In this document: one piece after another, positions 16,762 to 49,100 of the stretch
Layout of the letters: each line of letters begins with the position of its first letter
Position numbering within the stretch: the stretch's first letter is position 1
From: Terriglobales bacterium
GTDB lineage: Bacteria > Acidobacteriota > Terriglobia > Terriglobales > Acidobacteriaceae
Reading direction: 5' to 3'
Assembly (NCBI GenBank): GCA_025934735.1
Contig: JAICWP010000010.1
Span: 1-64,000, forward strand
Length of the DNA: 64,000 bases
Translations under genes and position numbers: made by a program
Notes under the pieces: model-generated
Seen by the model: only the letters and a program-made list of their open reading frames with translations
Database searches by the model: none
Told to the model about the DNA's origin: nothing

Positions 16762-16859
16762 TTGCCTTTCCATGCAAAAAAGCTTTTTCCGTTCGATCCT
16801 TTAACAGGAGAGGCTTGCCGCATGTGCGCCACAGGTCAAATCCGTCTGGGAGCGTCTTG

Positions 16860-19169
16860 ATGCACAAATTGACCCGGTGGTCCGGTGTGCTGCTGCTCGT
16901 TGCCGCGGTTAGCATTCCGGCCGCTGCTGATAAGGCTAAGTCCCTCTACAACAAAGGTAAGGACGCGGAAGCCCGGCAGGACTACGTGCAGGCCTTCGAG
17001 GACTACCGCCAGGCCTACACTCTGAAGCCTAACGAACTCTATTACCGCACCGCCTTTGAGCGCACTCGCTTCCTGGCAGCGGCCACCAAGGTCCACCAGG
17101 GCCAGTTGCTGCGCCAGTCGGGCCAGTTGCAGGTCTCGCTCAAGCTGTTTGAGGAGGCGGCCGCCATTGATCCCTCCAGCTTTATCGCCAATCAGGAGAT
17201 CACGCGCACCCGCGAAATGATCAAGCAGGCGCAGGCCGCCGGCAAAGAGGTGCCGCCGCCCACTCCTCCGGGCGCGTTAGGCAAGATGCTGCAGGAAGCG
17301 GGCGGGCCGGTGGAACTGGCGCCCATTTCCAACACCCCCATCACCCTGAAGATGACCGAGGACAGCAAGGTCGCCTACGACACCATCGGCAAGCTGGCCG
17401 GCATCAACGTGCTGTTTGATCCCGACTACACCTCGCGCCGCATCCACATCGAGTTGAACGGCGTAACCCTGCAGCAGGCGCTGGAGATTGTGGCCCTGGA
17501 ATCGAAAACCTTCTGGCGTCCGGTCACTCCCAACACAATTTTCGTGGCGCAGGACAATCCCGCCAAGCGCAAGGAAGTGGAACAGAGCGTCATCAAGACC
17601 TTCTATCTCTCCAACCTGTCGGCTCCGACTGAGCTCCAGGATGTGGTGAACGCCATGCGCACCATCCTGGAAGTCAGCCGCATCCAGCAGCTGCCATCGC
17701 AGAACGCCATCGTGGTGCGGGGCACGCCCGATCAGGTGGCGCTTGCGGAGAAGCTCATCGGCGACATTGATAAGGCCAAGCCCGAAGTTGTGGTGGACAT
17801 CGCCGTCATGCAGGTCAACCGCGAAAAGGTTCGCACCCTGGGCATCAATCCGCCCACCAGCACCACCGTTTCGCTGCAGCCCAACCTGAGCACCACCAAC
17901 ACAACGACCAACTCCACCACAGGCACCAATACCACTACCGGAACCACGGGTACTGGAACCGGCAGCCCCGGCAGCATCAGCCTGAACGCGCTGGGCAATC
18001 TGAACGCCACCGATTTCCAAGTGAACATCAGCTCCGCCACGGCTACCGCGCTTTATAGCGATAACGACAGCCGTATTCTGCAGGAGCCGCAGATTCGCGC
18101 CGTAGATGGCCAGAAAGCTTCGCTCAAAATCGGCGAGCGCGTCCCCGTTGCCACTGGTTCATTCCAGCCCGGCATCGGCGGCGTTGGCATCAACCCGCTG
18201 GTGAATACCCAGTTCCAATATCTGGATGTCGGCGTCAACATTGACATCACGCCGCACACCCACGCCGACGGCTCCGTGACCCTCAAGGTGATGATGGATG
18301 TCTCGAACGTGGCCGGCAATACCAACATCGGCGGCATCCAGCAGCCCATCATCGGCCAGCGCAAAATCGAGCATGAAATCCGCCTCAAGGAAGGCGAAGT
18401 TAACCTCTTGGGCGGCATGTTCGAGCACGATGACGTGAAAAGCCTCTCCGGGTATCCCTGGCTGGCGCAAGTTCCCCTGCTCCGCTACTTCTTCGGGCAG
18501 AGCAACGTGGACCGCCGTAACAGCGAGATCGTTTTCGTGCTGACGCCCCACATTGTCCGTGGCCAGTTCGTTACGCCCATGAACGAGCGCGTGATTGACG
18601 TGGGCACCGCCAATAACATTGAGCTGCGCCCGGCGAGCGCCACCGTTCCGGCTGCTCCTGCCCCGGCGCCTGCAGCGGCTCCCGCGGGACAGGCTCCGGC
18701 CGCGGCTCCGCCGCAACCGGCAACACCGCCGCCCGCTAGCCCTCAGGGGCCAGGCACGGCCACGCTGAGCTTTGATCCTGCCACCATCAACCAGCAGGTG
18801 GGCAAGACCTTTGCCGTGAATGTGGTGCTGAGCCCGGTGCAGAATGTTTATTCGGTGCCGGTGCAGATCACCTACAACCCGGCCATGCTGGAAGTGGTGA
18901 ACGTTTCCGACGGCAACCTGCTTTCGCGCGATGGCCAGCCCGTCGCGCTGGTCCACCGCGACGATCCTTCCACCGGAACCCTGCAGGTCACCGCCACCCG
19001 GCCGCCCAATTCCGGCGGGGTTTCCGGCGAAGGACAGGTGTTCACCATTACATTCATGGCGAAAGGGGCGGGAACTTCAACCCTGAACATTGCCCGCGAC
19101 GGCTTGCGTGACAGCTCGATGCAGCCCATTCAAGCCACCGGCGCCCAAGCGACCGTGACGGTGCAATAG
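16860..19169 (+). CDS. Secretin (GspD/PilQ-type) with TPR and cohesin-like domains
   Basis: This is a 769-residue outer-membrane secretin. Residues 1-23 are a signal peptide. TPR-like repeats follow (about 25-130, KDAEARQDYVQAFEDYRQAY). A secretin/TonB short N-terminal domain is at about 170-235 (LAGINVLFDP), and a secretin N-domain at about 245-310 (ILEVSRIQQLPSQNAIVVRG). The secretin barrel is at about 380-570, ending in SEIVFVLTPHIVR. A Pro/Ala-rich linker (about 590-635) leads to a cohesin-like domain (about 635-769; LSFDPATINQQVGKTFAVNV). Secretins form the outer-membrane pore of type II secretion or type IV pilus systems. The ATG at 16860 follows GGGAG and starts the signal peptide. Two pseudopilin genes follow. 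The cohesin domain at the C-terminus is not part of classical secretins. Confidence 0.9.
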   Translation: MHKLTRWSGVLLLVAAVSIPAAADKAKSLYNKGKDAEARQDYVQAFEDYRQAYTLKPNELYYRTAFERTRFLAAATKVHQGQLLRQSGQLQVSLKLFEEAAAIDPSSFIANQEITRTREMIKQAQAAGKEVPPPTPPGALGKMLQEAGGPVELAPISNTPITLKMTEDSKVAYDTIGKLAGINVLFDPDYTSRRIHIELNGVTLQQALEIVALESKTFWRPVTPNTIFVAQDNPAKRKEVEQSVIKTFYLSNLSAPTELQDVVNAMRTILEVSRIQQLPSQNAIVVRGTPDQVALAEKLIGDIDKAKPEVVVDIAVMQVNREKVRTLGINPPTSTTVSLQPNLSTTNTTTNSTTGTNTTTGTTGTGTGSPGSISLNALGNLNATDFQVNISSATATALYSDNDSRILQEPQIRAVDGQKASLKIGERVPVATGSFQPGIGGVGINPLVNTQFQYLDVGVNIDITPHTHADGSVTLKVMMDVSNVAGNTNIGGIQQPIIGQRKIEHEIRLKEGEVNLLGGMFEHDDVKSLSGYPWLAQVPLLRYFFGQSNVDRRNSEIVFVLTPHIVRGQFVTPMNERVIDVGTANNIELRPASATVPAAPAPAPAAAPAGQAPAAAPPQPATPPPASPQGPGTATLSFDPATINQQVGKTFAVNVVLSPVQNVYSVPVQITYNPAMLEVVNVSDGNLLSRDGQPVALVHRDDPSTGTLQVTATRPPNSGGVSGEGQVFTITFMAKGAGTSTLNIARDGLRDSSMQPIQATGAQATVTVQ

Positions 19170-19207: not shown

Positions 19208-19738
19208 ATGATATTCAGGTTTTCCAAGACGGGGCGCTACTCCCCGTTCCCGCGGCAGAAAGTTGTTCCTCGAACCGCGGCGGCTCGGCTTCGCCGGGCA
19301 CAGGGCGGCTTCACTCTCATCGAGATGATTGTGGCCGTCAGCATCCTGGCCATTCTCACCGGCATGGCCATTCCCCTGGTGCGGGTGAAGGTCCAGCGCG
19401 AGCGCGAGGTGGAGTTGCGGCGCGACTTGTGGGAAATGCGGGACGCCATTGACCGCTACAAGGATGCCGCCGACCGCGGCGCTTTCCAGGTCAAGGCCGG
19501 CACCAACGGCTATCCCCCCGACCTCGATACCCTGGTCAACGGCGTGGATGTGGGCGGCAAGAAGGTGCGCTTCCTTCGCCGCATTCCCATTGACCCTATG
19601 ACCGGCAAAAACGAGTGGGGAATGCGTTCTGATCAAGACGACCCAGATTCCGGGTCCTGGGGCGGGCAAAACGTCTTTGATGTTTTCACCAAGTCGCAGG
19701 GCACAGGCCTCGACGGCAGCAAATACGCAGAATGGTAA
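19208..19738 (+). CDS. Type II secretion / type IV pilus pseudopilin (GspG-like)
   Basis: This 176-residue protein carries a prepilin leader of about 34 residues ending in QGG, followed by FTLIEMIVAVSILAILTGMAIPL. That is the classic prepilin peptidase site (cleavage after Gly, methylated Phe, Glu5). The remainder is a soluble domain with LRRDLWEMRDAIDRYKDAAD and RRIPIDPMTGK, resembling the major pseudopilin GspG. The leader is unusually long. The gene follows the secretin by 38 bases and overlaps the next pseudopilin gene by 7 bases, so the three form an operon. Confidence 0.88.
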   Translation: MIFRFSKTGRYSPFPRQKVVPRTAAARLRRAQGGFTLIEMIVAVSILAILTGMAIPLVRVKVQREREVELRRDLWEMRDAIDRYKDAADRGAFQVKAGTNGYPPDLDTLVNGVDVGGKKVRFLRRIPIDPMTGKNEWGMRSDQDDPDSGSWGGQNVFDVFTKSQGTGLDGSKYAEW

Positions 19739-20139
19739 GCACACTCACAACCCGCAGGCGCCGCGGCTTCACCCTGATTGAGCTGATGATGGTCATCAGC
19801 ATCATCCTGATCCTGGTGTCCATCGCCGCGCCCATTTACAAGACCGCCATCCTGCACGCCCACGAGGCAGTGCTGCGCGACGACCTGTTCACCATGCGTT
19901 CGCTCATCCAGCAGTACACTCTGGACAAGCAAAAGGCGCCGCAGTCGCTTGAAGACCTGGTCAGCGCCGGCTACATCAAGCAGATTCCCAAAGATCCCTT
20001 CACCGGCACCGCCGATACCTGGGTCACCGATCAGGAAGACGTCCTGCTCAGCGTAGACCAGCAGCAGCCCGGCATCGTGGACGTCCACAGCGGCGCCAGC
20101 GGTAGCAGCTCCGAAGGCACCGCCTACTCCTCCTGGTAG
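19732..20139 (+). CDS. Pseudopilin (GspG-like), second copy
   Basis: This 135-residue pseudopilin has a short basic leader (TLTTRRRRG) and the methylation motif GFTLIELMMVISIILILVSI. Its body is shorter than that of the upstream protein but shares the pattern LRDDLFTMRSLIQQYTLDK and IPKDPFTGTADTW. It ends in a Ser/Gly-rich segment. The start at 19732 lies within the end of the preceding gene. It probably assembles with that protein into a pseudopilus working with the secretin. Confidence 0.88.
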   Translation: MVSTLTTRRRRGFTLIELMMVISIILILVSIAAPIYKTAILHAHEAVLRDDLFTMRSLIQQYTLDKQKAPQSLEDLVSAGYIKQIPKDPFTGTADTWVTDQEDVLLSVDQQQPGIVDVHSGASGSSSEGTAYSSW

Positions 20140-42732: not shown

Positions 42733-43140
42733 TCAGCAGTGTGAGATGCGCTTGCTGGCCGCCTCTCTCAAAACGAGGGCGGTTTTCAAGCTTTGTAATG
42801 CGGCTGCGGGACGGGTGCCGTTCAGCGTCAGACCAATTCCCACGGCTGCACCCGCGACTCCACTGGTGAGGCGAACGACTTTGCCGTAATAGCTAACGCA
42901 AGGCGAAGAGGAAACGGGTGCGGGAAGCGTCAGCTTGAGCTCAACTTCCTCGCCGATAGCCGGGGTGAAACTGGAAAACAGAAACAGGCCGCTAGCGCTG
43001 ATGTCGCGAATGACCGCGGCATGTTCCGCACGGTCAAAAACAATGGACACGGGGAGGATGAGGAGGGTACGGGCTTTGCCGCGCCGGTCTGAGCCGGGGT
43101 GCAGCATGACATCTTGGCCAGCCAGTTTCGGATGTCCCAT
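42733..43140 (-). CDS. PilZ-domain protein
   Basis: This 135-residue protein ends in the repeat-rich region. It holds PilZ-like features: SDRRGKARTLLILPVSIVF with a split Arg motif, RDISASGLFLFS as the second c-di-GMP motif, EVELKLTLPAP, and a closing GVAGAAVGIGLTL. The first motif is RRGKAR instead of the tight RxxxR. It pairs with the next gene upstream in a short minus-strand group with a second PilZ protein. The c-di-GMP target is unknown. Confidence 0.72.
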   Translation of the reverse strand: MGHPKLAGQDVMLHPGSDRRGKARTLLILPVSIVFDRAEHAAVIRDISASGLFLFSSFTPAIGEEVELKLTLPAPVSSSPCVSYYGKVVRLTSGVAGAAVGIGLTLNGTRPAAALQSLKTALVLREAASKRISHC

Positions 43141-43389
43141 GCACTGTTAATAGGGCAAAAGAAGGGCCAGAAGCTGCTGCTTGGGAATCAGTTCTTTAGC
43201 GAAAGTCTTGGGAGTAAGTTTTACCAGCGCACGTACTGCTTACATATCTCCAGCAGGAAATTACGCAAGTAACTCCCAGAGGCCTGTGGCGTTATGGGAA
43301 CCATCAATTTGATAGCACCTGCTACCTGCGAGGACGGCGGTTGGTCGCATTCTGAAAATGGAATAACACGGGAAACAGATGCGGTGGCT

Positions 43390-43701
43390 TCAGTCCATCA
43401 AGGCAAAGGGTTGATCGCAGCGGAAAGCGATGGCGTAGCGGCCCTGGGGTTGGTCCTCTTCCACCCGCACCACCTGGCAGGTACCGCTCAGGCGGATGCT
43501 GCGTTCCAGGCGGGATTCCAGTACCAGCACCAACTCGGTGCGCATGCCCACGGGAAGCAATTTTTCAGCCAGCAACAGCACGCCATCTTTGCTCACATCC
43601 TGGGTCTCGGCGGAGAGGGTCTCTTCACCCTCGAGCGGGCGAACGAAGGCGGGCTGTTTCAGAGGAAAACGGCGGCTTCTGCGGCGTTCCGACTCGTGCA
43701 T
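43390..43701 (-). CDS. PilZ-domain protein
   Basis: This 103-residue protein is a single PilZ domain. RRRSRRFPLKQP provides the RxxxR-type motif near residue 8. TQDVSKDGVLLLAE gives the DxSxxG-like motif, with Lys in place of the second Ser-x. GRYAIAFR closes the barrel. It binds c-di-GMP if the motifs are functional. It lies 190 bases downstream of the LuxR-type regulator and in the same orientation. Confidence 0.82.
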   Translation of the reverse strand: MHESERRRSRRFPLKQPAFVRPLEGEETLSAETQDVSKDGVLLLAEKLLPVGMRTELVLVLESRLERSIRLSGTCQVVRVEEDQPQGRYAIAFRCDQPFALMD

Positions 43702-43894: not shown

Positions 43895-44674
43895 TTAGTC
43901 CATGGCCAGCGTGTTGCGCGCACCCGCGGCTGGTTCGCGGGCAGGGTTCTTGCGCCCGCTGCGGGGCGGGTTGCCGTTTTCGTTCTCCGGTGCTTCGCGA
44001 TGGCTGAGGGCATAGAGCACCAGCTCCACGCGGCCGGAAATGCCCAGCTTGTCGAAGATGCGGAACAGGTAATTCTTTACCGTGTGCTCGCTGAGGTTGA
44101 GCTGGCGGGCGATCTCGCGGTTGGTGAGGCCTTCAGCCACGCAGGCGACCACCTGCTCCTCGCGCTTGCTGAGCAGGCTTTTGCCCTTGGCATTCACGAT
44201 GTGCAGCGGGGATACCTGGCCGAGGGCTTGCAGCACGAACTGCAGTTCGTCGTTGTTGGCCCAGATCTGTCCCTGGTGCACGCACACGATGCACTTGCAC
44301 AGCATCTTGAAGGATTGCGATCGGCTGAAAATTCCGCGCGCTCCGGCGCGGAAGGCGTCCACCACCAGGTCGCGCTCGGAGGAATCCAGCAGAAGGACGG
44401 CGCGAGTTTGGGGATGAGAAGTACGCAGCTCGCGCAGCAGCTGAAACCCGCTCAGCGGCCCATCCTGCAGGTTGACGCTGATCACCGCCACCTGCGCCGG
44501 TTCCTGCTTCAATGACTGCAGCACCTCGCTCATGCTGGTGGCGCAGCCGATTACGCGAAAATTGCTGTTGCGCTGCAGGGAACTGGTGAGGAGTTGGCAA
44601 GCCATGCGGTTCTCGTCCGCCACGAGGACGCTGATGGTCTTCTCCGCTTCCGTGGCTGCCGGATGCCCAGGCAA
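43895..44674 (-). CDS. LuxR-family response regulator with degenerate receiver
   Basis: This 259-residue protein has a receiver-like domain (about 12-125) and a LuxR/GerE HTH (about 165-220: LSKREEQVVACVAEGLTNREIA, then HTVKNYLFRIFDKLG). In the receiver the acidic pocket is partly kept (VADENR), but the phospho-acceptor position after the third strand reads AVISVNL instead of LxD. The conserved Lys is replaced too (GIFSRS). It may therefore work without phosphorylation. Start: the TTG at 44674 has AGGAG seven bases upstream. The longer frame to 44818 adds 48 residues without domain similarity. The gene is divergent from the ExeA-TonB gene, which it may regulate (inference). Confidence 0.82.
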   Translation of the reverse strand: MPGHPAATEAEKTISVLVADENRMACQLLTSSLQRNSNFRVIGCATSMSEVLQSLKQEPAQVAVISVNLQDGPLSGFQLLRELRTSHPQTRAVLLLDSSERDLVVDAFRAGARGIFSRSQSFKMLCKCIVCVHQGQIWANNDELQFVLQALGQVSPLHIVNAKGKSLLSKREEQVVACVAEGLTNREIARQLNLSEHTVKNYLFRIFDKLGISGRVELVLYALSHREAPENENGNPPRSGRKNPAREPAAGARNTLAMD

Positions 44675-45123
44675 TAGACTGCTCCTGTTGGGGTAAATGT
44701 ACAGGCGGTAACGGGGGGACGTATGCCTCCAACAAAATACCACGCCGACATCCCCGTACGAAGCACTAAAATGCTCCTGAGCTGGTTTGGGTATTTCAGT
44801 GTATACCATAGTAAACACAGTGATTGTCGTCCAAAGCTTTGCCCGACCGGCACAGAACTTTTTTCCCTAAGGCCGGGTGGACCGGGCCTTTCCTCTCTAA
44901 CGGCAGGAGTCCCCAATTTGCCGGGCCGGCAGTGTGCTCCAGCGGGACTTCCGTTGGTAACCTGCGAACGAACCGAGGTGGGTCGGGCGGAGCCGGCGGG
45001 GCTGGCGGCGCGTGGTAGTATCGGTAAAACCTGAGCAGCGCGCCGCTGGCCACCCACACAGGCGCGCCCCAGGATGAGCCGCACAGTTTTTCCCCAATAG
45101 CGTGCGGCGGGCTGTTCAAGAGC
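44675..45123. other. Divergent intergenic region
   Basis: About 450 bases lie between the LuxR-type regulator and the ExeA-TonB gene. No reading frame here is convincing. It should contain promoters in both directions and perhaps binding sites of the regulator. I could not identify specific boxes. Confidence 0.4.
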
Positions 45124-47157
45124 ATGTATCTGAATCACTACGGCCTGCAGGAAGAACCGTTCGGAGTCACACCCGATCCGCGTTTTCTATATACGACGCA
45201 CAGTTACCGTGTGGCCCAGTCCACGATGGAGCACGGAATCGCTTGCGAACGCGGCTTTACCGCGCTGGTGGCGGGGCCGGGCATGGGCAAGACCACGCTC
45301 CTGTTCCATCTGCTGGAGCGCTATTCCAGCACCGCCCGCACCGCTTTCCTCTTCCTGACACAGTGCGATGCGCGCGAGTTCCTGCGCTGCCTGGTGTCGC
45401 AGCTGGGAGCGGCCACGCAAGAAACGGATCTCGCGGCCCTGCAGGAGCAGCTGGGCGAACTGCTGCGGCGGGAAGCGGAGGCGGGCAGGAAAGTGATCGT
45501 CGTTGTGGATGAGGCCCACAATCTTGAGCCCAGCGTGCTGGAGACGGTGCGCTTGCTTTCCGATTTCGAAACGTCACGCGCCAAGCTGCTGCACATTATC
45601 CTGTGCGGCCAGGCGGAACTGGCCGACAAGCTGGCCGCGCCCGCCCTGCGGCAGCGCATTTCCCATTTGGCGCGCCTGAAGCCGCTGAACGGAGCCGAGG
45701 TGCGGCACTATATTGAGCACCGCCTGCGGGTGGCGGGTTACTCCGGCGCGCCGCTGTTCACGCGCGAAGCCCGCACCCTGATTCTGCAACGCAGCCAGGG
45801 CATTCCGCGCCTGGTAAACAATCTTTGTTTCCAGGCGCTCTCGCGGGCCTGCGAGCTCAATCGAAAAACCGTGGATGGCCGCATCCTGGCCGAAATTTCC
45901 GGCGAGGTGGATTTGGACGTCCGCCAGGAAGAGACCGCGGCGCCGGCGATTTCAATAAATGAGGAGGAACCCGCGGATGAGCAGCAAGCCGCGGTGGCGG
46001 GAAACAGCGTGCAGCCGGTGAACGGCGACGCCTCGCCGCTGGTGGTGGCTGCTTCCGCGGCGGTGATGCATTTTCCGGCTGCGGACAGCCACGCGCAATC
46101 TCCGGAGAGGTCGGAAACCTCGCCCACGCTGGGCCCGGTGTTGGTGCCCACGCCTAGTGCCGGCAACGGAGCGGCCGCTGCAAGCTCGCTCAATGGAGCC
46201 GCGGTTGCTGCTTCAGGCTCAGCGCCGGCAGGGCCGCAGGCTGCAGAAGCGCCAAAGCCGGCCATTGATGTGGAGGCTCTGGCGTTCGATTGCGCCTTGT
46301 TTGAGATGGAAGCGCCTAAGCGCTGGAAGCGGCCGGAAGGGAAGGCGGCGGCCCCCAACTCTCCGGGCGCGGCGACCCCAGCTTCGATGCCGGCGCGTGC
46401 GCGGGTGCGCCCGCCGAGCGCCACTACGAAGCGTTCCACTCCACCTGCCCCCGCGGGCAGGGCCATACCGCGGTCTGCTCCGGAGCCGGCCCAGCCGGTG
46501 CGAGTCCTCGGCAAGGCTGCTGAGGGCGCGGTGCAGCCGGCACGTTTGGGGGCGGCTATGGTGGCGCCGCACCGGGACCGCATTCTTTACGTGGCGGCGG
46601 GCGCGTCGCTGCTCTTACTGCTGCTGATGGCGTGGCTGCTGGGCACGAGCGGGTCTTCGGCTTTATCCCAGGAGCCAGATGCGGAAACGACACCGCGGGT
46701 AGCGATCACGGCCAATCAGCCTGTAGCATCGTCCAGTGTGGCCACGGAAAGCAGTCCATCCGGCAGCGCCACGTCTGACAGCACCACGTCTAACAGCACC
46801 ACGCTCGACGTGAAGCAAGAGCTGGCGCCGGGTGCAGGACGGACTTCCCATCCGGCAGTGGTGATGCGGGGCATGCGAGCGGGCGAGGAGTTGCTGCAGC
46901 GCGTGGACCCGGTTTATCCGGCAGCGGCCCTGGAGAACCACATTGAAGGGCCAGTAGTGCTGGAGGCGACGATCAGCAGCCATGGTTTCCTGCGCCACAT
47001 TCGCGTGCTCAGCGGGAATCCCTTGCTGGCCAACGCGGTGCTGGATGCGGTGCAAGGCTGGAGTTACCAACCGCGCCGGGTGCGCGGGCGCGCGGTGGAG
47101 ACGGAGACGCGCATTGTAGTCAACTTCCAGCTGTCTGGTTCGGCGCAGAAACACTAG
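45124..47157 (+). CDS. ExeA/GspA-type ATPase fused to a TonB C-terminal domain
   Basis: This 677-residue protein has an AAA ATPase of the ExeA/MshM type in residues 1-270. It begins MYLNHYGLQEEPFGVTPDPRF, with Walker A GPGMGKTT at 51-58, Walker B VIVVVDE at 124-130, and LLHIILCGQAELA as sensor. A Pro/Ala-rich, low-complexity linker (about 270-480) leads to one transmembrane helix (about 483-505). A periplasmic TonB C-terminal domain follows (about 595-673: VDPVYPAAALENHIEGPVVLEATIS, ending in VVNFQLS, in adjoining pieces). ExeA proteins use ATP and peptidoglycan binding to assemble the type II secretin. The fusion puts a TonB-like energy-transfer module on the same chain, an unusual combination. 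It may act with the secretin or with polysaccharide export. Confidence 0.88.
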   Translation: MYLNHYGLQEEPFGVTPDPRFLYTTHSYRVAQSTMEHGIACERGFTALVAGPGMGKTTLLFHLLERYSSTARTAFLFLTQCDAREFLRCLVSQLGAATQETDLAALQEQLGELLRREAEAGRKVIVVVDEAHNLEPSVLETVRLLSDFETSRAKLLHIILCGQAELADKLAAPALRQRISHLARLKPLNGAEVRHYIEHRLRVAGYSGAPLFTREARTLILQRSQGIPRLVNNLCFQALSRACELNRKTVDGRILAEISGEVDLDVRQEETAAPAISINEEEPADEQQAAVAGNSVQPVNGDASPLVVAASAAVMHFPAADSHAQSPERSETSPTLGPVLVPTPSAGNGAAAASSLNGAAVAASGSAPAGPQAAEAPKPAIDVEALAFDCALFEMEAPKRWKRPEGKAAAPNSPGAATPASMPARARVRPPSATTKRSTPPAPAGRAIPRSAPEPAQPVRVLGKAAEGAVQPARLGAAMVAPHRDRILYVAAGASLLLLLLMAWLLGTSGSSALSQEPDAETTPRVAITANQPVASSSVATESSPSGSATSDSTTSNSTTLDVKQELAPGAGRTSHPAVVMRGMRAGEELLQRVDPVYPAAALENHIEGPVVLEATISSHGFLRHIRVLSGNPLLANAVLDAVQGWSYQPRRVRGRAVETETRIVVNFQLSGSAQKH

Positions 47158-47166
47158 CGGGTAGCG

Positions 47167-47901
47167 TCAGCTGCTGGCGCGGGCTGACGAAGTAAGGACC
47201 TTTTCCCCGGAAACGATGGCCCGCGGATTGTGTTCCACGAGGAGGCGCGCCAACTCCTCGCCATGCCACTGCGCGACCAGGTCGCGGGCTCCGGAGAGCA
47301 TGGGCACGCGGCGGCGGCTGTCGTGGGCGTCAGTGGCCAGCACGTGCACCATCCCTTGTTCCAGCAGAGAACGCGCGCTGCGCCGCGCCTGCTCGCCCCA
47401 GTAGCCGGTGAGTGAATTGGCCGTAATCTGCACCAGGCAGCCGTCATCAATCCATTGCCGCAGCCGCCGCAGATCATTGTGCAGCAGGGGATTGCGTTCC
47501 GGATGCGTGATGACGGGGGTGAGCCCCTTCTCGATGAGTTGCAGCAGCGCCCCGGTCATTTGCTGGGGGATAAAGTCATGGCTGAACTCAACCAGCAGGT
47601 AGGCGGTGTTGCCGATAGTGTAGCGCTGCGGGTGGGCGAAGGCGTCTTCGAGGTTTTCGTGGGAAAGGTGGAAATCGCAGCCCAGGCTGAAACGGGGTGT
47701 GCCGCCGGCCATCTGCTGCAGCCGTTCCAGGCGCTCCGCGAAGGCTTCGCGGTTATAGGTGTAGTGAGAATCGGCATGGGGAGTGGCCACGATGTGCTGA
47801 ATGCCGTCCTGCACGGCAATCTCGCACATCTCTGCCGCCATGTCCCAGGAGCGGGCTCCGTCGTCCACTTCCGGGATGATGTGGCAATGGATATCTACCA
47901 T
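47167..47901 (-). CDS. CpsB/YwqE-type tyrosine-protein phosphatase (PHP fold)
   Basis: This 244-residue protein belongs to the manganese-dependent PHP-family phosphatases that dephosphorylate bacterial tyrosine kinases controlling capsule or exopolysaccharide synthesis. Metal-binding motifs are MVDIHCHIIPEVDDGARS at the start (His5, His7), VATPHADSHYT, FHLSHENL, ITHPERNP and LATDAHDSRRR near the end. No kinase or polysaccharide genes are seen in the window, but the neighbouring genes concern envelope functions. It ends 9 bases from the ExeA-TonB stop, in convergent orientation. Confidence 0.92.
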   Translation of the reverse strand: MVDIHCHIIPEVDDGARSWDMAAEMCEIAVQDGIQHIVATPHADSHYTYNREAFAERLERLQQMAGGTPRFSLGCDFHLSHENLEDAFAHPQRYTIGNTAYLLVEFSHDFIPQQMTGALLQLIEKGLTPVITHPERNPLLHNDLRRLRQWIDDGCLVQITANSLTGYWGEQARRSARSLLEQGMVHVLATDAHDSRRRVPMLSGARDLVAQWHGEELARLLVEHNPRAIVSGEKVLTSSARASS

Positions 47902-48714: not shown

Positions 48715-48893
48715 GAGGTATCTTCCGTAAAACCCAAGTCCGCCACAGAGACACAGAGGCACAGAGAACGGCAACTCAGCGATCAGGGAAACTCTAACGC
48801 GGGCGAGGGTGCCTGCGCCACAGGGCAGGGCGCGAGGTGCTTAAGGTGCTTCGCCGCGCTCAAGTTCGGCTATTGGCCCAGAGGGCGCGTACA
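48715..48893. other. Short intergenic region before the 84-bp repeats
   Basis: I see no gene or regulatory box in these 180 bases. The 84-bp repeat array follows directly, and the next gene starts at 49197. Confidence 0.35.
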
Positions 48894-49100
48894 CGCCAGA
48901 TCCCTCGCGTCGCTCGGGATTTCGGCTGCGCTGGGCTCCCGCTCGTCGCCTGTGGCGACTCGCTCACGCCCGCAAAACGCCAGATCCCTCGCGTCGCTCG
49001 GGATTTCGGCTGCGCTGGGCTCCCGCTCGTCGCCTGTGGCGACTCGCTCACGCCCGCAAAACGCCAGATCCCTCGCTGCGCTCGGGATTTCGGCACGCGG
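48894..49100 (+). repeat. 84-bp tandem repeat, two perfect copies and one partial
   Basis: Units at 48894-48977 and 48978-49061 appear identical. A third, partial unit (49062-49100) continues with CAGATCCCTCGC and CTCGGGATTTCGGC. The unit contains GCCTGTGGCGACTCGCTCACG, read in two parts. The 84-bp length keeps the frame, so a spurious repeated protein frame runs through it. Confidence 0.88.

Follow-up and report, generated by a model that had tools for sequence, protein, structure and literature searches.

What does a protein do that carries an ATPase of the ExeA type at one end and the C-terminal domain of TonB at the other? We have studied such a protein, encoded in a stretch of 64,000 nucleotides (the window; contig JAICWP010000010.1, positions 1 to 64,000) from the genome of a Terriglobales bacterium, an organism of the soil. 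A preliminary description drawn from the letters of the sequence had proposed that one chain joins an ExeA-type AAA ATPase, by way of a membrane helix, to a TonB C-terminal domain (CTD), and that ATP hydrolysis could be coupled directly to an outer-membrane channel.

The open reading frame begins with ATG and matches 45124-47157 (+) exactly; its parts are collected in Table 1. Pfam, NCBIfam and structure prediction concur that the proposed elements lie in a single chain, and the architecture, an AAA+ domain followed by a linker, a membrane helix and a TonB_C domain, is real. Pfam matched AAA_22 at residues 43-170 (E 2.1e-19; 70.6 bits, cut-off 27) and TonB_C at residues 596-670 (E 6.4e-14; 52.6 bits, cut-off 24.6), and the NCBIfam model TIGR01352 tonB_Cterm scored 36.4 bits, above its cut-off of 27.1. 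The C-terminal part matched TonB-type families only in these scans and no GspB family, the homology-region model not being compared directly. The linker of 224 residues is rich in proline (14%) and alanine (25%). Stretches of 19 residues with a hydropathy above 1.6 start only at residues 485-496, with a value of 2.36 at residue 487. Membrane helices were judged by hydropathy throughout, and the topology of the ATPase-TonB_C proteins is a predicted one; the same scan gave just 1.21 for the fused copy L046 and 1.59 for the fused copy L018 (loci are numbered L and genomes G), the maximum in L046 falling elsewhere than the stretch that aligns with the window helix.

An AlphaFold model of the whole protein, calculated from six sequences, has a mean predicted local distance difference test (pLDDT) score of 57.9 and contains an AAA fold, a helix at 487-507 and a TonB-like fold at 590-671. 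The two folds have pLDDT values mostly of 77-89, and the remainder is mostly below 50 or disordered. Modeled alone (27 rows), the TonB domain has a mean pLDDT of 80.6 and a predicted TM-score (pTM) of 0.67. Foldseek returned CTDs of TonB as the top solved matches to this model, the first being 6i97_D (E 1.7e-5, TM-score by target (TMt) 0.86, root-mean-square deviation 1.2), a TonB CTD bound to FoxA; the predicted structure thus bears out the TonB-like fold that had been proposed. The AAA part resembles AAA+ ATPases of the Cdc6/ORC, TnsC and MuB types.

The positions of the Walker A and B motifs, also noted previously, are intact in the window protein. Residues G53, G55, K56, D129, E130, G162, R200, G226, P228 and R229 do not vary across the 96 aligned rows counted, which include the window and leave out the fused fragment L138; T57 and R178 are each present in 95 of the 96. 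Compared with L138, the TonB_C domain is 72% identical with a ratio of nonsynonymous to synonymous substitution rates (dN/dS) of 0.20, and the two linkers are 45% and 48% identical with dN/dS of 0.27 and 0.25, the synonymous rate being near saturation. Compared with L046, TonB_C is 40% identical with dN/dS of 0.54, and the ratio for the membrane helix is 0.69. As a mark of special constraint on TonB_C these ratios are weak, and we did not use them as such. Within the linker, columns 380-405 are 73% identical between the window and L138, against 45% for the linker as a whole, and the stretch at about residues 382-400 also aligns in L046 and L018 and is present in L138. Judged from this conservation, the short helix predicted there could be a docking helix.

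Matches at E <= 1e-20 were found in 63 of 100 sampled genomes of the same family, the window's genome included; one of the 63 (G031) matches only through a TonB_C part. With the window counted, at least 11 copies of the ATPase-TonB_C fusion occur, spread over 8 genomes of a single acidobacterial family; the number is a lower bound because only part of the ATPase matches was fetched. Besides the window, the copies are L018 (genome G010), L083 (= L030; G022), L029 and L134 (G029), L046 (= L017), L115, L138 and L139 (all four in G041), L080 (= L019; G089), L147 (G091) and L089. The named records among them are Acidobacteriales, Acidobacteriaceae and Candidatus Angelobacter. L138 is incomplete: on its contig of 5.6 kb, which belongs to a genome of the same family, the sequence starts within the ATPase domain, and for this reason Pfam shows only TonB_C in this fragment. 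Among titles and abstract openings of the open-licence literature, we found no ExeA-type ATPase fused to TonB_C.

The ATPase also occurs in a short form. In 38 aligned rows it has at most 375 residues, and no stretch beyond the ATPase domain is strongly hydrophobic (highest value 0.86); two of these rows (L036 and L110) run off the contig or stretch. A separate TonB_C gene stands upstream, on the same strand and within 10 kb, in 21 of 36 short loci compared with 0 of 44 loci of other architectures; without L110, where the frame runs off the contig, the count is 21 of 35. In 20 of these 21 loci the proteins belong to one cluster of 21 members, with TonB_C in all 21 and GAF in 20 by Pfam, and with a helix placed between the head and the TonB_C end in 20 of the 21. 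In the remaining locus, L097, the TonB_C gene is a 120-residue piece at the edge of the stretch. L110 itself has a TonB_C gene 342 bp away on the opposite strand, which was not counted.

A quick tree of ATPase domains contains one group of 46 rows, made up of 33 short forms, 8 with TonB_C and 5 others. Its support in the Shimodaira-Hasegawa-like approximate likelihood ratio test (SH-aLRT) is 94, just below the value of 95 at which branches were starred. The window, L046 and L018 group together in the tree (99); L018 is a long branch, and L138, L139 and L147 were left out. We rejected a single origin of the fusion, given that the tree needs three changes of the TonB_C label and the starred branches force at least two. 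The same part of the tree includes L082:10001-11338(+), in which Pfam finds the ATPase fused to GAF and no TonB_C. This fusion is a second sign that the ATPase and the GAF-TonB_C protein belong together. It is as if the ATPase had been joined to the head of the GAF-transmembrane helix (TM)-TonB_C proteins that related loci encode.

In what company is the ATPase found? A scan of genome contigs gave 183 relatives, and the best 80 loci were kept; by their labels 79 are Acidobacteriota (Candidatus names included) and one (L093) is Betaproteobacteria. Neighbors within 9 kb were clustered, each cluster being named from one or two representatives. Wza and/or Wzz genes are present in 59 of the 80 loci; by family the counts are Wza 55, Wzz 56, BY-kinase-like protein 56, UpxY/NusG-type antiterminator 46 and sugar transferase 41, lower bounds because many contigs end inside the searched range, with the Wza, Wzz and kinase representatives scoring below their own NCBIfam cut-offs. 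The best or near-best matches of these three are XrtA-system or Eps families. Of the fused copies whose surroundings were read (the window, L018, L046, L080, L083, L089, L115 and L134), two lie within operons of this kind, L046 (UpxY-Wza-Wzz-ATPase::TonB_C, followed by the contig end) and L134 (UpxY-ATPase::TonB_C-kinase-UGDH-Wza-Wzz). On these grounds the window ATPase probably belongs with the ExeA/GspA-like AAA+ ATPases that accompany polysaccharide-export genes.

The preliminary description had named two possible outer-membrane partners. A polysaccharide exporter fits the Wza and Wzz genes of the related loci, though the window copy lies outside such a locus. The other, a secretin encoded at 16.9 kb of the window, we set aside as a partner: blastp at E 1e-5 found no relative of it among the open reading frames of at least 70 residues in the 80 loci, a search in which many contigs end within 10 kb, which a distant secretin could escape, and in which other type II secretion system (T2SS) genes were not sought. 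The secretin itself (16815-19169) matches TPR at its N-terminus and Cohesin at its C-terminus, behind the secretin domain, and the gene at 19732-20139 carries an N-terminal methylation motif of the pilin type.

The organization of these proteins can be compared with that of known systems. PMC9239104 and PMC6532946 describe GspA as an AAA+ ATPase that has a membrane helix and, in the periplasm, a part that binds peptidoglycan. The GspA of Alteromonas and Pseudoalteromonas is without this periplasmic part and is accompanied by a longer GspB, and natural fusions of GspA and GspB occur in Vibrio vulnificus, among others. For ExeB, PMC4098917 reports a similarity of 39% to TonB and binding to the N0N1 part of the secretin. 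By these accounts, the window protein resembles GspA/GspB (ExeA/ExeB) and the GspAB (EpsAB) fusion in having an ExeA-type AAA+ ATPase in the cytoplasm, a single membrane helix and an arm in the periplasm, and the likeness extends to a partner with TonB-like features, separate or fused, and to ATPase forms with and without a periplasmic part. Unlike that of GspA, the arm in the window protein is a TonB_C domain, and a Pfam scan up to E 1 gave no match to PG_binding_1 (PF01471); unlike T2SS GspA, relatives of the window ATPase are mostly found in the context of polysaccharide export. The best NCBIfam match over residues 1-263 is the XrtA/PEP-CTERM-associated ATPase (TIGR03015, pepcterm_ATPase), but at 207.1 bits, below the cut-off of 324.5, the window ATPase is not a member by the NCBIfam rule, and the window protein adds the linker, the helix and TonB_C. 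Relatives under the same cut-off include L046 (235.8), L050 (242.0), L101 (255.3) and L044 of clade B (303.4). The C-terminal domain is like that of TonB energy transducers by Pfam, NCBIfam and structure, whereas the helix is internal, following 486 residues of ATPase and linker, and not N-terminal.

A short ATPase with a separate TonB_C protein, or the two in one fused chain, repeats the logic of GspA and GspB, in surroundings that mostly point to polysaccharide export. For this reason the reading that we favor, above a wall anchor, a signaling device and an ATP-driven TonB for a secretin or receptor, is that the window protein serves polysaccharide export as an assembly or gating factor similar to GspAB, and we give this an even chance of being right. 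The ATPase would oligomerize at the inner membrane, and ATP binding or hydrolysis would be used to build, position or gate a Wza-type outer-membrane polysaccharide exporter, the model for such a role being the action of GspA/GspB on the type II secretin. Reaching through the peptidoglycan, the TonB domain would serve as an arm that docks by strand addition on a putative outer-membrane partner. The window gene is situated apart from the export clusters of its genome, and its product would act in trans.

It also counts in favor of this reading that a search of the genome found a single ExeA-type copy, the window ATPase (best 74.7 bits, next 35), and that three Wza-bearing export clusters, on contigs C5, C26 and C43, have no ATPase in the stretches read. 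One exosortase-like gene is present in the genome, surrounded by none of the labeled export families; we therefore discarded the exosortase locus as a home for the ATPase. A further point in favor is the only labeled neighbor of the window gene, the divergent response regulator: the nearest relative found for it (77% identical over 252 residues) is the regulator beside the L046 operon. Since the regulators are so similar, the window locus looks like the L046 locus minus UpxY-Wza-Wzz, a likeness that we infer from sequence.

Several observations weigh against an assembly or gating factor. No relative of the Wza, Wzz or kinase sets was found by blastp (E 1e-8) within the 64 kb window, and the CpsB-type neighbor was rejected as a conserved partner, having no blastp relative in the 80 loci and an adjacency that is not conserved. 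Among the five fused loci within the 80, Wza is found in four and Wzz in just one. In L080, L083 and L089 Wza lies about 5-7 kb upstream with other genes intervening, which in L083 include a CarboxypepD_reg/kelch-type protein, and the fused locus L115 has no Wza gene in the neighborhood read. L018 has none of the labeled export families in 18 kb; its neighbors are an ABC transporter of the peptide type and a GGDEF/HD protein. A separate TonB_C gene is missing from ten short loci of the clade; five of these had less than 5 kb of upstream sequence and five about 10 kb. The Fisher value for the comparison of short loci with other architectures, 5.5e-10, overstates independence because the short ATPases are nearly one clade. 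Lastly, three residues that are present in L138, L046, L038 and others are missing from the window copy just before R178 of a conserved loop (45643-45657, residues 174-178), so that the activity of the window ATPase is not certain.

A further possibility is that TonB_C is one interchangeable envelope module, like LysM, OmpA, AMIN, PEGA or amidase, that fixes the ATPase in the cell wall, exerting no force and having no specific outer-membrane partner. The range of modules in the relatives speaks for this. Pfam found LysM in 22, TonB_C in 9, PEGA in 4, Amidase_3 in 3 and HSP20 in 2 of 97 aligned rows, with single cases of OmpA (L043) and GAF (L082), and beyond that set AMIN in L141 and Sel1 in L148 and L151. 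Sel1 was rejected for L031, where it fell below the cut-off, and for L035, which has no Pfam match. Because related ATPases bear LysM, OmpA, AMIN, amidase or PEGA in this position, the part in the periplasm may serve to anchor or scaffold and not to pull; the periplasmic part of ExeA, too, binds peptidoglycan (PMC4098917). However, the TonB_C forms share one part of the tree with short forms that have a separate TonB_C gene, a clustering that suggests a specific role rather than free exchange. TonB domains are, moreover, known mainly as protein-binding arms, and we judge a wall anchor to be unlikely. Among the relatives with other modules, L102:3232-6174(+) has PEGA and a tail that resembles the kinase of the operon by eye, and L116 and L125 have Hsp20 C-termini.

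Alternatively, TonB_C proteins with AAA, GAF and PilZ heads may be one-pass devices that pass information between cytoplasm and outer membrane, the AAA domain being one such head. Besides the AAA protein, the window's genome encodes TonB_C proteins with an internal helix and heads of the GAF type (L135:5851-7158(+), GAF-TM-TonB_C) and the PilZ type (L006:181-1617(-), PilZ-TM-TonB_C), and two more (L007:46-1926(+) and L137:4768-5883(+)) with heads that have no Pfam match; the AAA head is thus one of several cytoplasmic heads on TonB arms. The head of L007 had a receiver-like look, for which there was no Pfam support. L002, L003 and L004 of the same genome, in which the helix is N-terminal, resemble ordinary TonB proteins. 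The GAF-TM-TonB_C genes share loci with short ATPases, a point in favor of signaling, but the ATPase motifs are fully kept, and these would be unneeded in a mere sensor. We consider a signaling role improbable.

An ATP-driven TonB that directly energizes an outer-membrane channel or receptor without ExbB/ExbD, possibly the window secretin, would suit the intact ATPase motifs and TonB CTD fold on one chain, as well as the target binding through strand addition described for TonB and TolA CTDs in PMC12204202, but seems very improbable given that the secretin has no blastp relative in the 80 loci, that motor and helix are separated by 224 residues of linker, predicted to be flexible, which would transmit force poorly, and that TonB_C is replaced in relatives by modules with no known pulling role. 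The strict SHLS motif is absent from all nine fused copies scanned and equally from L002, L003 and L004. Its absence is not proof of independence from ExbB/ExbD, as it does not discriminate: the genome's own three TonB proteins with an N-terminal helix are without the strict motif.

The window holds some further features around the gene. Two adjoining PilZ-domain genes stand beside the response regulator at 42733-43701 (-). A tandem repeat with a unit of 84 nt, in two identical copies and a partial third (48893-49094), is flanked by genes for hemerythrin and 3-hydroxyacyl-CoA dehydrogenase.

Table 1. Coordinates in the window of the ATPase-TonB_C gene, its parts and its two flanking genes
Feature	Position	Strand	Evidence
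Whole gene: ExeA-type AAA+ ATPase, linker, membrane helix, TonB C-terminal domain (677 residues)	45124..47157	+	Open reading frame, Pfam, NCBIfam, AlphaFold
Cytoplasmic AAA+ ATPase domain, residues 1-262	45124..45909	+	Pfam AAA_22, AlphaFold model, Foldseek
Walker A GPGMGKTT, residues 51-58	45274..45297	+	Aligned rows
Walker B, residues 124-130, last residues D129 E130	45493..45513	+	Aligned rows
Pro/Ala-rich cytoplasmic linker, predicted disordered, residues 263-486	45910..46581	+	Composition; most pLDDT <50
Short conserved linker stretch, about residues 382-400, predicted helix 383-391	46267..46323	+	Alignment
Single predicted membrane helix, residues 487-507	46582..46644	+	Hydropathy and AlphaFold helix
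TonB C-terminal domain, residues 586-677 (Pfam 596-670)	46879..47154	+	Pfam, NCBIfam, structure
Divergent LuxR-type response regulator	43895..44818	-	Pfam GerE and Response_reg
Convergent CpsB/CapC-type protein (capsule-type PHP phosphatase by family name)	47167..47901	-	Pfam CpsB_CapC, E 1.6e-54

To our knowledge it is not settled by what means polysaccharide exporters of the outer membrane are placed through the wall, nor what role ExeA-like ATPases play in exopolysaccharide loci. The pairing of ATPase and TonB_C, separate or fused according to the genome, gives a concrete partner hypothesis, and carries the logic of GspA/GspB into another export pathway. A broader proposal is that a TonB output driven or set by cytoplasmic modules (AAA+, GAF, PilZ) in place of ExbB/ExbD would constitute a separate kind of trans-envelope transducer in these acidobacteria, with the AAA+ member an ATP-powered TonB for polysaccharide export; this we hold to be rather improbable. 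TonB domains on cytoplasmic regulatory heads, as seen in this genome, would widen ideas of how TonB-type arms are driven.

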